Under the pieces are notes generated by a model. The model had not been told where the DNA came from and made no database searches. It saw only the letters and a list, made by a program, of their open reading frames with translations. Below are positions 18,862 to 23,185 of a stretch of DNA of 43,423 bases, in pieces. The position numbers and the translations under genes were made by a program. The stretch spans positions 1 to 43,423 of the forward strand of contig JARGPH010000043.1 of assembly GCA_029213065.1 (NCBI GenBank), given 5' to 3'. How positions within the stretch are numbered: position 1 is the first letter of the stretch; every line of letters begins with the position of its first letter. Source of the stretch: Verrucomicrobiales bacterium (lineage in GTDB: Bacteria; Verrucomicrobiota; Verrucomicrobiia; Verrucomicrobiales; DEV007).

Positions 18862-19848
18862 ATGGTTATTTCAGAAGTTAAAAACGATTTTGATGAAGCT
18901 CTATTCGAGGCTTCTGCTCCGCTCTCCCGCTCGAAAGCCGAGATTCTTCAGCTCAATATTGGAAAACTTTGCAATCTGACCTGCGTGCACTGTCATGTGA
19001 ACGCCGGCCCGAAGCGAAAAGAGATCATGACGGGCGAAACCGTCGACCAAATCCTCGATTGGTTTGAGAAAACGGATATTCCGACACTGGACCTTACCGG
19101 GGGAACCCCGGAGATGATTCCCGACTTCAAACGTCTCGTCACCACGGTCCGCAATTTTGACCAGCCCCGTCGAGTCATGGACCGGCTCAATGCCACCATC
19201 ATCAGCGAACCGGGATTCGAGTGGGTTCCTGAATTCCTCGCGGAGAACAAGGTCGAGATCATCGCGAGCATGCCATGCTACGAGCCGGACAACGTCAACT
19301 CTCAACGGGGTGATGGTGTTTTTGACCGCAGCATCGAAGCGTTTCAAAAGCTCAACGAACTCGGATACGGCCGCGATCCCGAGCTGGTCATCAATTTTGT
19401 CTACAACCCCAACGGGGCCTTTCTTCCCCCCGAACAAACCGGACTCGAAGCCGACTACAAACGGGAGATGAAAGAGCATTTCGACATCGATTTCAATTCT
19501 CTCTACTGCATTGCCAACATGGCGATCGCACGTTTTGCGAGCTACCTGAAACGAAACGGGGAGTTCGAGGAATACTCAAACCTGCTCCGACAGAGCTTCA
19601 ATCCCGGCACGGTCGAGAGCCTGATGTGTCGCAACACCATCAACGTGAGCTGGGAAGGCGATGTCTACGATTGCGACTTCAACCAGATGATGAAGCTCCC
19701 CCTCTCCAATCAGGAGAGCGATGAAAAGCTCATGAAAGTCTGGGATATCGAACTCGACGCTTTCAAAGCGCTCCCGATTCGCACCGGCAACCACTGTTTC
19801 GGATGCACCGCAGGCAGCGGTAGCTCGTGCGGCGGTTCACTTTCCTGA
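18862..19848 (+). CDS. arsS: Arsenosugar-biosynthesis radical SAM protein ArsS-like
   Basis: 328 residues. C37-N-L-T-C41-V-H-C44 is the radical SAM CxxxCxxC cluster motif, followed by HVNAGPKRKE and LTGGTPEM. The C-terminal third (VYNPNGAFLPPEQTGLEADYK, SLMCRNTINVSWEGDVYDCDFNQMM, NHCFGCTAGSGSSCGG) is the DUF3641 region typical of ArsS, rich in Cys for extra clusters or arsenic. ArsS attaches the adenosyl group of SAM to dimethylarsenite in arsenosugar synthesis. The next gene encodes the matching methyltransferase, 36 nt away, which supports the assignment. Confidence 0.92.
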   Translation: MVISEVKNDFDEALFEASAPLSRSKAEILQLNIGKLCNLTCVHCHVNAGPKRKEIMTGETVDQILDWFEKTDIPTLDLTGGTPEMIPDFKRLVTTVRNFDQPRRVMDRLNATIISEPGFEWVPEFLAENKVEIIASMPCYEPDNVNSQRGDGVFDRSIEAFQKLNELGYGRDPELVINFVYNPNGAFLPPEQTGLEADYKREMKEHFDIDFNSLYCIANMAIARFASYLKRNGEFEEYSNLLRQSFNPGTVESLMCRNTINVSWEGDVYDCDFNQMMKLPLSNQESDEKLMKVWDIELDAFKALPIRTGNHCFGCTAGSGSSCGGSLS

Positions 19849-19884
19849 TCCCTCTTCCAAGAAACCCAATTCCCCCCCGAATTT

Positions 19885-21045
19885 ATGAAAACCGAAACTG
19901 TTGTAAAAGACCGCTACGCCGAAGGTGCCAACTCACGTCAGGAAGCGCTCTGCTGCCCCGTGGAATACGACGCGCAGTATCTCAAAATCATCCCGACCGA
20001 AGTGATCGAGCGTGACTATGGTTGCGGCGACCCAAGCCAGTATGTCAAAGAGGGCGAAACGGTTCTCGACCTCGGAAGCGGCACCGGAAAAATCTGTTTT
20101 ATCGCGAGTCAGGTCGTCGGACCAAGCGGCAAAGTGATCGGCGTCGACATGACCGATGACATGCTTGAAGTCGCCCGCCGCAACGCCCCTGTCGTAGCGG
20201 AGAGGGCCGGACATGACAATGTCGAGTTCAGGAAAGGTCGCATTCAGGATCTTGCCCTCGACCTCGAAGCCCTCGAAGAACGTCTTAAAGAAAACCCCGT
20301 GAGCGATGCAAACGGCTTCCTCGAGATGGAAGAGCTCGCCGACGAGCTCCGCATCAAGCAGCCACTGGTCGAAAGCGATTCCGTTGATGTCGTCGTTTCC
20401 AACTGCGTTTTAAACCTCGTTTCCAAAGCAAACCGGCGTCAAATGTTCGAGGAAATCCACCGGGTTCTCAAACGTGGCGGCCGCGCTGTCATCTCCGACA
20501 TCGTCTGCGACGAGGAAGTCCCTCAGCATCTACAGGACGACGCCGAACTCTGGAGCGGCTGCATCTCCGGAGCCTTCCTCGAAGATGAATTTCTCCAGGC
20601 CTTCGAAGACGCGGGCTTTTATGGCGTTCGAATTCTTAAGTTCGACAAAGAGCCCTGGCAAACCGTCAAAGGGATCGAGTTTCGCAGCATGACCATCGAA
20701 GCCTTCAAGGGCAAAGAGGGTGTTTGCCTCGAGCGCAATCAGGCCGTGATTTACAAAGGCCCTTTCAAGAAAGTTCTCGATGATGACGGTCACGCCATGG
20801 AGCGCGGGAAACGCTACGCGGTCTGCGACAAAATCTTCAACATCTATCAAACCGGAGCCTACGAGGGAATGTTCGAATTCGTCGAGCCACAGGAAAACAT
20901 CCCGCTTGAGGAAGCCGAACTGTTTGATTGCTCCCAAACGCTCATTCGCGATCCCCGCCAGACCAAAGGTGCCAGCTACGATGCCACGACCGAAGCAAGC
21001 GATTGCTGCTCACCAAGTGATTCATCAGGAGCGAGCTGCTGCTGA
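19885..21045 (+). CDS. arsM: ArsM-like arsenite SAM methyltransferase
   Basis: 386 residues. VLDLGSGTGKI (60-70) is the SAM-binding motif I, GVDMTDDML motif II, SNCVLNLV holds the conserved NC near motif IV. Cysteines C23-C24, C47 and the C-terminal pairs (DCCSPSDSSGASCC) can bind As(III). An insertion at about 125-160 distinguishes it from small ArsM proteins and fits the version found next to ArsS. It would methylate arsenite to mono- and dimethylarsenicals used by ArsS. No arsR or arsenite pump is adjacent, so this looks like a biosynthetic rather than a simple resistance operon. Confidence 0.9.
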   Translation: MKTETVVKDRYAEGANSRQEALCCPVEYDAQYLKIIPTEVIERDYGCGDPSQYVKEGETVLDLGSGTGKICFIASQVVGPSGKVIGVDMTDDMLEVARRNAPVVAERAGHDNVEFRKGRIQDLALDLEALEERLKENPVSDANGFLEMEELADELRIKQPLVESDSVDVVVSNCVLNLVSKANRRQMFEEIHRVLKRGGRAVISDIVCDEEVPQHLQDDAELWSGCISGAFLEDEFLQAFEDAGFYGVRILKFDKEPWQTVKGIEFRSMTIEAFKGKEGVCLERNQAVIYKGPFKKVLDDDGHAMERGKRYAVCDKIFNIYQTGAYEGMFEFVEPQENIPLEEAELFDCSQTLIRDPRQTKGASYDATTEASDCCSPSDSSGASCC

Positions 21046-21847: not shown

Positions 21848-23185
21848 ATGAGAATCTCCGTCATTTCCACTCTCACATTGTTAGCAACGAGTCTTCTACC
21901 CGCCCAAGGACCGGGATCAAAGGATTCCTCTCCTCTCCCCCTTCAGGGAAAAAGACTCCCCGAGGTATCGGCTTTCAATGAAGCGGGAGAGAAGATCCAG
22001 TTACAGGAATTACTGAAAGGACGCCACGCCGTGATCGTCTTCGGGTGTCTAACATGACCACCTTTTATTCGTAACGTCCCCGGTCTGGAGGCGGTCAATC
22101 AGGATTACAGCAACAGGGAAGTCGCTTTCTTCTACGTCTACAAAGCACTCGCTCACCCTGAAAAGGACGGCTACGTGCAGCCGGTCACCATCGCCGAGCG
22201 ACTCGCGCATATCAGCGCCGCAAAGCAAAAGCTGGGCACCCGGATCCCCTGGCTTGCCGATACGATGGAAAATGATCTCAAGCACGCTTTCGGCGATCGA
22301 AACAACTCGGAGTTCGTTATTTCCCCCGAAGGTAAGGTGCTCATTGCACGAGCGTGGAGTGATCCCGAGGCCCTCCGGTCCGATCTCGAGAAACTGGTCG
22401 GGAAGGCCGAGACCCTGACGAAAGTCTCAGATTTGGATCGTCCCGAAGCGATCGTGGATTCAGCCCATACCAAAGTCGCCACCGGAATCGTTCCGCGGCT
22501 TGAACGCCCCGCCGGATCGGAAGCGCTCGTCGTGAAAGCCCTCCCATCAGCGAAAGACCTGCCGCTCTATCTCAAACTCCGGGCGGAAGCCCCAAAATCA
22601 CTGGGCCGCGACGGCGGCGGAACGATGCATCTCAGTTTCAGCCTCGATCCCATTCACCGCACCCACTGGAACAACCTCGCTCCCGCGATGCGCTACTCCG
22701 TTTCATCATCCGGCGATACGACGGTGACACCGTCTTCCGGCGAGGCAGCGAAAGTGACCGCTGCCGACGCAGACCGCGATCCCCGTGATTTTCTCGTTGA
22801 AGTCGATCTCGGGGAATCAAGAGACCCGCTCCGTATCTCGGTATCTTTTTTCGCCTGCGACGACGATGATAAATGGTGCAACGCGATCACTCAGGAATTC
22901 GAAATCAGCTGGGAAGTCGATCGTGACGCCGGAAGAATCCAGAACCGATCGAAGGGTGGCAAAGGAAAAGGCGGCAGCGGACGAGGCATGAAAGGGAATG
23001 CCACCCGACGCATGCCGGACCCCGACCAACTCATGCAGCGAATCGATCGCAACGGAGACGGGCTGATCCAGAAAGACGAAGCACGCGGTCCCATTTCCGA
23101 ACGCTTCGCGGAAATGGACGCCGACGACAGCGGAACTCTTTCCCATGAGGAGCTAATCGCATGGTTCGAAAAGCGCGGGCGATAG
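21848..23185 (+). CDS. Predicted exported deiodinase-like selenoprotein with DsbD-alpha-like region and EF-hands (TGA read as Sec)
   Basis: One 445-residue frame from ATG 21848 with a single in-frame TGA at 22055-22057. Signal peptide MRISVISTLTLLATSLLPAQ. Residues 30-185 form a thioredoxin-like domain: HAVIVFGCLT-U70-PPF matches the deiodinase active site (F-G-x-x-T-U-P-P-F), followed by Y97-V-Y, A102-H-P-E-K-D-G and D138-T-M, landmarks shared with deiodinases. C67 and U70 make a C-x-x-U pair. Residues about 225-358 resemble the DsbD-alpha Ig-like domain, with a Cys pair C337/C344. Residues 400-411 and 424-435 are two EF-hand loops. Automatic annotation would give a 69-residue fragment and a separate ORF from about 22175. 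Role probably thiol/selenol redox or dehalogenation in the periplasm; substrate unknown. Alternatives: nonsense mutation or sequencing error. Confidence 0.85.
22075..22093 (+). promoter_or_regulatory. Predicted bacterial SECIS hairpin downstream of the TGA codon
   Basis: CGTCCCC (22075-22081) pairs with GGAGGCG (22087-22093) around a GGTCT loop (22082-22086), with one C.A mismatch and one G.T pair. The loop begins 24 nt after the TGA. A GG-containing apical loop such as GGUCU in E. coli fdhF is the SelB-binding feature. It lies inside the coding sequence, as bacterial SECIS elements do. Confidence 0.7.

Follow-up and report, generated by a model that had tools for sequence, protein, structure and literature searches.

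The window analysed here, a stretch of 43,423 nt that corresponds to contig C65 of the 5.9-Mb, 96% complete genome of a Verrucomicrobiales bacterium, carries on its forward strand a reading frame that runs from an ATG at 21848 to a TAG at 23183-23185 and contains a sole in-frame stop, the TGA at 22055-22057 (codon 70). When this single TGA is read through, the frame specifies a protein of 445 residues, whose features, in window coordinates, are as follows.

21848..23185 (+): selenoprotein gene with one TGA read through, recognised by its homologues
21848..21907 (+): residues 1-20, read by eye as a probable signal peptide with LPA-Q at its end
21929..22405 (+): deiodinase/peroxiredoxin-like thioredoxin-fold domain, residues 28-186, from PF00837 and the DIO3/DIO2 matches
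22046..22048 (+): Cys67, three residues ahead of the predicted selenocysteine (CxxU), from conservation
22055..22057 (+): TGA predicted to specify selenocysteine 70, from conservation among homologues
22076..22092 (+): probable bacterial SECIS apical stem-loop, GUCCCC-GGUCU-GGAGGC, with the loop at 22082-22086, 24 nt past the TGA
22439..22939 (+): beta-sandwich second domain (residues 198-364) with a weak resemblance to the DsbD N-terminal domain (model pLDDT 89.6)
22856..22858 (+): Cys337 of the domain-2 Cys pair, from the alignment
22877..22879 (+): Cys344 of the domain-2 Cys pair, from the alignment
23045..23080 (+): EF-hand calcium-binding loop 1, residues 400-411, from the sequence pattern and a Pfam scan
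23117..23152 (+): EF-hand calcium-binding loop 2, residues 424-435 (Pfam EF-hand_1, 31.9 bits)

A preliminary description of this DNA had proposed that a deiodinase-like selenoprotein is hidden at the locus. Translation confirmed the extent of the one-stop frame and the placement of the predicted selenocysteine (U) at residue 70, together with the two deiodinase motifs on which that proposal drew: the site around the TGA reads F65-G-C67-L-T-U70-P-P-F73, and it is followed by A102-H-P-E-K-D-G108, in which His103 lies 33 residues past U70. The description also had the TGA separating the signal peptide from the thioredoxin fold. The signal peptide does precede the TGA, but in the structural model the first thioredoxin strands (residues ~33-66) precede it as well. 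Read with the standard code, the frame is interrupted, and a 336-residue open reading frame begins at a GTG at 22175; a standard gene caller that takes TGA for a stop would probably divide the gene and give it a wrong name. Just upstream, within window positions 18862-21045 on the same strand, are an arsenosugar radical SAM gene, ArsS (TIGR04167, 424.6 bits, over the cut-off), and after it an ArsM-like methyltransferase gene whose best match, NF040538, scores 346.7 bits, under its cut-off of 500.

Homologues of the read-through protein were recovered from several sets of genomes. Eight were found in named genomes, from Verrucomicrobiales or Verrucomicrobia metagenome-assembled genomes (MAGs; six), a Planctomycetaceae MAG and an Arenicellaceae MAG, and all eight carry a TGA at the codon in question. 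Within the window's own family, 19 of 74 genomes contain a match, comprising 17 with the Sec form (the own genome included), one with a Cys form (G400) and one with a frameshifted Cys copy (G438); the TGA is present in each of the 16 further Sec-form genomes, and hence in 17 of 17 when the own genome is counted. Five of the eight homologues are the same records as family genomes (L020, L021, L022, L026 and L027 duplicate L048-L052) and were counted once. After this merging of duplicates the window and its relatives amount to 20 distinct Sec-clade sequences from three phyla, and every one of them has its TGA at this codon. Within the phylum and the class the gene is rare: matches were found in 13 of 387 genomes of an even sample of the phylum (E 1e-10) and in 4 of 384 of an even sample of the class (E 1e-20), and in each sample the own genome alone has a TGA at the site. 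A scan of viral contigs detected no relative, and a scan of plasmids returned one distant match, annotated as deiodinase-like, that is 31% identical over 32% of the query.

The preliminary description had proposed searching for homologues with Cys or Sec at the U position. Relatives do carry Sec or Cys there; in a clade farther removed the residue is Asp, and in it the two active-site positions have changed jointly. A tree was built from 35 sequences, of which 20 are Sec, 7 Cys and 8 Asp forms; in it the Sec forms group together with support of 99/96 and the Asp forms with support of 100/99. The active site begins GCLT in all 20 Sec and 7 Cys forms and GDLT in all 8 Asp forms; the Cys forms, one of which is encoded in the own genome (L041), read GCLTCPEF or GCLTCPEY. 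The Asp forms (L033-L037 and L042-L044) read GDLTD at the active site, that is, DxxD, and they are without the domain-2 Cys pair. The joint change of Cys67 and Sec70 in these proteins fits a CxxU pair that acts as a unit. The G438 copy (L065/L067), in which a Cys codon occupies the Sec site (GCLTCPPF) ahead of a SECIS-like stem sequence and a frameshift, represents either an assembly error or a recent replacement of Sec by Cys, and was left out of the Sec and Cys sets. The constraint, tree and Cys-pair sets likewise exclude L038-L040 and L045, which match only in part or only over the EF-hands, as well as the Cys form L086 and the distant L087. The Cys form present in a different family of the phylum (L029-L031) ends a long open frame of ~890 residues, with EF-hand loops at its end.

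These sequences bear on whether the TGA is a genuine stop, in which case the locus would be a pseudogene, a pair of separate genes or the product of a sequencing error. Such a reading draws on the break in the frame under the standard code and on the 336-residue frame that begins downstream. It is contradicted by the identical TGA in 20 of 20 distinct sequences, by protein conservation that continues across the TGA, and by a peak of synonymous constraint that occurs shortly past the TGA in Sec forms only (see below). Pseudogene, sequencing error and split genes are each rejected in view of the conserved TGA and the constraint peak, and we regard a genuine stop as very improbable.

The components required for selenocysteine decoding, whose presence in the genome the preliminary description had proposed to check, were all located on one contig of the own genome (C52): selA (501 bits), selB (291.8 bits), selD (379.9 bits) and selC, the tRNA-Sec gene, which scores 60.6 bits against a gathering score of 47 and to which ARAGORN assigns the anticodon TCA. 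By its sequence, the SelD encoded there (L018:1450-2538, C52) is itself a selenoprotein, with a TGA read through in CAGUASK. A search for selA in the same 74 family genomes produced 50 matches at E up to 0.001, 47 of them over the cut-off; one match (G432, E 5e-4) was left out, giving the count of 49 used here. On this count, selA is present in 17 of 17 Sec-form genomes versus 32 of 57 genomes without the Sec form (Fisher p 0.0003), a p-value that overstates the evidence, as does the one that follows, since the test counts kin genomes as independent. Fifteen of the Sec-form matches are over the cut-off and two are fragments (G421, which starts from base 2 of its contig, and G451, in which the C-terminal part only is present), and with the comparison restricted to matches over the cut-off the proportion is 15 of 17 and the p-value 0.013.

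An alternative in which the TGA is read as an ordinary amino acid, with no involvement of selenium, would account for the open frame, and the open frame alone speaks for it. It is countered by the complete sel machinery in the genome, by the SECIS-like element, and by the Cys codon that the nearest TGA-less relatives have at this position, and we consider it hardly credible. Decoding of the TGA at codon 70 as selenocysteine is, on these comparisons of sequences, close to certain computationally. The hidden selenoprotein originally proposed is upheld by the TGA conserved in 20 of 20 sequences, by the full set of sel components and by codon constraint specific to the Sec forms.

This constraint was measured as the fraction of same-residue pairs that use the same codon. 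For codons 77-86 of the 20 Sec forms, the value is 0.69, versus 0.38-0.40 in the four other regions measured, and the ten-codon windows starting at codons 76-78 are the highest of those scanned; among the first nine sequences, the corresponding values are 0.80 at codons 77-86 and 0.37-0.38 in the regions measured. No peak is observed in the 7 Cys forms, which give 0.46 at codons 77-86 and 0.48-0.53 in other regions, plus 0.67 at codons 71-76 (few pairs), or in the 8 Asp forms, which give 0.46 at codons 77-86 and 0.41-0.49 elsewhere. The frozen stretch of codons coincides with the stem-loop GUCCCC-GGUCU-GGAGGC (22076-22092), whose loop is the GGTCT at 22082-22086, 24 nt past the TGA. Published rules for bacterial SECIS elements specify a loop of 3-9 nt with a G within the first two positions, an upper stem of 4-16 bp, a distance of 16-37 nt from the UGA and a minimum free energy of at most -7.5 kcal/mol (PMC13188914). 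The GGUCU loop and the 24-nt spacing fit these rules, and the stem has five pairs with an internal C-A mismatch.

When the hairpin is forced, its energy of -7.7 kcal/mol just passes the limit of -7.5, but the free minimum, at -14.2 kcal/mol, is a different structure, and when left to fold freely the window segment does not prefer the hairpin and has an unremarkable energy (z -0.73). With the hairpin forced, 5 of the 20 aligned sequences (L025, L052, L055, L057 and L058) miss the energy limit, L025 by the most. Across the alignment, 88.3% of pair cells are standard and one pair exhibits a compensatory change; a C-A mismatch lies inside the stem in 13 of the 20 sequences, and covariation is weak, with 60 of 500 shuffles reaching the score. 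A pattern consisting of a stem plus an [AG]GU[ACU]U loop follows 2 of the 1700 TGA triplets in the window, that of the gene itself included; this pattern was written after the alignment and so does not constitute an independent test. An Rfam scan of the window at gathering thresholds yielded no match. Of the GGTCT-loop hairpin that the preliminary description had placed at the right distance, the loop and the spacing stand, but free folding of the window RNA prefers another structure. We consider the stem-loop to be a probable bacterial SECIS, an assignment that is based on the codon constraint specific to Sec forms and not on folding energy.

The first domain of the read-through protein has the thioredoxin fold, and its assignment as deiodinase-like agrees with the initial reading: PF00837 scores 29.7 bits, over the Pfam cut-off of 27, and the best matches among solved structures by sequence are DIO3 and DIO2 (phmmer, E 1.2e-4 and 2.6e-4; profile search, E 1.5e-6 and 8.2e-5, followed by ResA at 0.0034). 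The PF00837 model matches 9 of 9 members at E up to 0.1; a six-frame search of the own genome with the same model listed two other proteins and not the selenoprotein gene. The full-length structural model has a pLDDT of 81, with low confidence at residues 1-28. DIO2 has the highest Z for this domain (19.7, rmsd 2.8, 157 aligned) and DIO3 the next (18.9, rmsd 2.9, 158 aligned), with SdbA (18.8, rmsd 1.8, 140 aligned) in a tie with both and ResA not far behind at 17.6, whereas the Foldseek ranking places DipZ and ResA first, DIO3 26th and DIO2 30th.

For Dio2, a proton relay has been proposed that comprises Ser127, Thr129, Tyr157, Glu160, His162 and His182 (PMC11592359). The protein retains the F-G-x-x-T-U-P-P-F and AHP motifs of the DIO enzymes, along with Tyr98 and the AHP His103, but Cys67 and Leu101, both invariant in 9 of 9 members, replace the relay Ser127 and Glu160, rendering true deiodination less likely. 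The first domain is therefore probably not a thyroid-hormone deiodinase, as judged from its residues, and "deiodinase" here names the fold family. A related alternative holds that the protein is a true reductive dehalogenase that strips iodine or bromine off aromatic substrates, algal organohalogens or iodotyrosines for example, with the Sec attacking the halogen by the DIO mechanism. The standing of DIO3 and DIO2 as best solved relatives by sequence, and by Z in a tie with SdbA, favours this view, as do the retained motif, Tyr98 and His103. The two invariant relay replacements weigh against it, as do three other bacterial deiodinase-like proteins (L046, L047 and L087) that keep the acid two residues before the His, and no dehalogenation gene was found among the 10 neighbouring proteins scanned. 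We judge a dehalogenase to be unlikely.

The same domain also exceeds the cut-offs of the Redoxin (28.5 bits) and AhpC-TSA (26.6 bits) models, and many peroxiredoxins appear in the structural list, both of which would suit a peroxiredoxin-like Sec peroxidase in which hydroperoxides are reduced at Sec70 and Cys67 regenerates the enzyme together with the Cys pair of domain 2. The peroxiredoxin entries, however, reach Z values of at most 16.9, compared with 19.7 for DIO2, 18.9 for DIO3 and 18.8 for the disulfide reductase SdbA, and a shared fold does not decide the chemistry. A peroxidase of this kind is conceivable, and we rate it as somewhat doubtful.

Although the deiodinase and selenoprotein reading of the preliminary description was borne out, that description missed two EF-hands and, ahead of them, a second domain in which a Cys pair is conserved. 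Modelled alone, the second domain (residues 198-364) forms a beta sandwich with a pLDDT of 89.6. A Foldseek search returned nothing below E 0.001, with adaptin ears and DsbD N-terminal domains among the first entries, and a profile search against solved structures returned nothing at E up to 1. The best Z, 8.3, belongs to a BBSome subunit, which is another beta sandwich, and DsbD-alpha (1vrs_C) scores 6.3. Naming the domain by structure alone was rejected, as the DsbD-alpha, adaptin-ear and other sandwich entries are indistinguishable.

DsbD_N (PF11412) matches 4 of 10 domain-2 sequences scanned in one register and below threshold (E 0.0034-0.2), the best score being 17.8 bits (L061, E 0.0034) against a cut-off of 25 that none of the sequences scanned reaches, and unrelated families appear in the same scan at E 0.02-0.25. 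Among full-length proteins, 1 of 9 matches DsbD_N (E 0.098), and the window's protein is not matched at E up to 0.1. Two of the own genome's proteins carry PF11412 and align weakly in the same register, with DPTWHTYWKN (L085) and APEYHTYWRG (L084) opposite DPIHRTHWNN, and the hhalign probabilities of domain 2 are 8.5% for L085 and 4.1% for L084. By modelling, domain 2 appears to resemble the DsbD N-terminal domain weakly. It may share with that domain (PF11412; 1jpe, 1vrs) the combination of a beta sandwich and a Cys pair at the last two strands; unlike it, domain 2 is attached to a deiodinase-like domain and falls below the Pfam cut-off. All 20 Sec forms and all 7 Cys forms have both Cys337 and Cys344, and all 8 Asp forms are without the pair. 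Near the C terminus, the EF-hand model PF00036 scores 31.9 bits against a cut-off of 25.4, and a sequence pattern recognises EF-hand loops in 17 of the 20 Sec forms, 3 of the 7 Cys forms and 6 of the 8 Asp forms.

Selenocysteine decoding, the fold family, the conserved Cys pair and the EF-hand loops are supported by computation. The explanation that we favour, and hold to be reasonably probable as a whole, is a secreted Sec oxidoreductase with Sec decoding, a built-in thiol relay and calcium-binding EF-hands. The SelA/SelB/SelC/SelD pathway would decode the gene, inserting selenocysteine at the TGA under the direction of the GGUCU-loop stem-loop 24 nt downstream, and the product would probably be exported to the periplasm or beyond. 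Sec70 would be the attacking residue in a Cys67-x-x-Sec70 active site in which Cys67 resolves, and turnover would leave an oxidised Sec, probably as a Sec70-Cys67 selenenylsulfide. The N-terminal domain of DsbD engages in disulfide exchange with partners that resemble thioredoxin; by a comparable thiol relay, Cys337 and Cys344 of the DsbD-N-like domain would reduce the oxidised Sec. The EF-hands would take up calcium and so help to stabilise or anchor the protein, and the candidate substrates are peroxides, oxidised thiols and organohalogens, in preference to thyroid hormone. The occurrence of Cys337 and Cys344 only alongside a Sec or Cys active site suggests that domain 2 serves the Sec domain; the Asp forms make up one clade, so that the joint loss counts as one event and the support for the relay is moderate. 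We put forward more tentatively, and with less than even confidence, the specific proposal of a self-contained, calcium-stabilised extracytoplasmic selenoenzyme, in which the Sec domain would reduce the substrate and the fused DsbD-N-like domain would reduce the Sec domain in the same chain.

The gene neighbourhood is not conserved and offers no conserved neighbour that names a substrate: none of the 11 genes around the window's gene has a match at E 1e-6 within eight homologous loci. Sulfatase genes lie within ~3 kb in 6 of 20 loci (from three query proteins, some loci having short flanks), and the own genome contains 144 sulfatase (PF00884) matches at E 1e-10. Such abundance is consistent with a degrader of sulfated compounds, and because of it we give the sulfatase neighbours no weight.

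Iodothyronine deiodinases DIO2 and DIO3 carry a membrane anchor. With the mammalian enzymes (PDB 9h48, 4tr3), the protein described here shares the thioredoxin fold, the F-G-x-x-T-U-P-P-F motif and the AHP motif; it differs from them in having Cys67 and Leu101 in place of the relay Ser and Glu, a probable signal peptide and extra domains. A deiodinase-like domain is also common to the NCBIfam model NF038285, "deiodinase family protein", on which our protein scores 62.8 bits against a cut-off of 250. Two other proteins of the own genome, L046 and L047, likewise fall below 250 on this model (151.2 and 143.9 bits); they are shorter (284 and 260 residues), read WGCD at the site and have no in-frame stop.

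The protein belongs to an already described kind, since deiodinase-like selenoproteins were published in 2005 and a fusion of one to an EF-hand domain in 2021. The 2005 report, on Sargasso Sea bacteria, described deiodinase-like proteins with Sec and with Cys and suggested a redox role (PMC1088965), and bacterial deiodinase-like selenoproteins were also reported from the GOS metagenome (PMC2398784). As far as the text of these two reports goes, the proteins resemble ours in being Sec or Cys members of PF00837 with a bacterial SECIS, for which a non-thyroid redox role was proposed. The motif of the type deiodinase-like protein is given as UxxC in two reviews (PMC9312934, PMC13188914); compared by description only, the present protein differs in its CxxU arrangement with Phe at U+3 and in its second domain with a Cys pair. 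A close published architecture is a deiodinase-like selenoprotein fused to an EF-hand domain, for which additional conserved Cys residues were noted (PMC9402790, Figure 2B), and the same report presents a separate peroxiredoxin-like selenoprotein fused to a PF11412 domain. That fusion has the same deiodinase-like and EF-hand pairing, and the text of the report, figures and supplements aside, does not describe the middle domain. More generally, we found no description of the second domain and its Cys pair in the literature searched, again with figures and supplements aside.

The 2005 report left the function of bacterial deiodinase-like selenoproteins a guess (PMC1088965), and the later reviews, in the parts of their text consulted, name none. 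The family described here offers a testable answer, in that the domain-2 Cys pair is missing in just those relatives that are without a Sec or Cys active site. If the proposed relay is true, these proteins would represent a deiodinase-fold enzyme with its own built-in reductant, which could explain deiodinase-like chemistry outside the bacterial cytoplasm.
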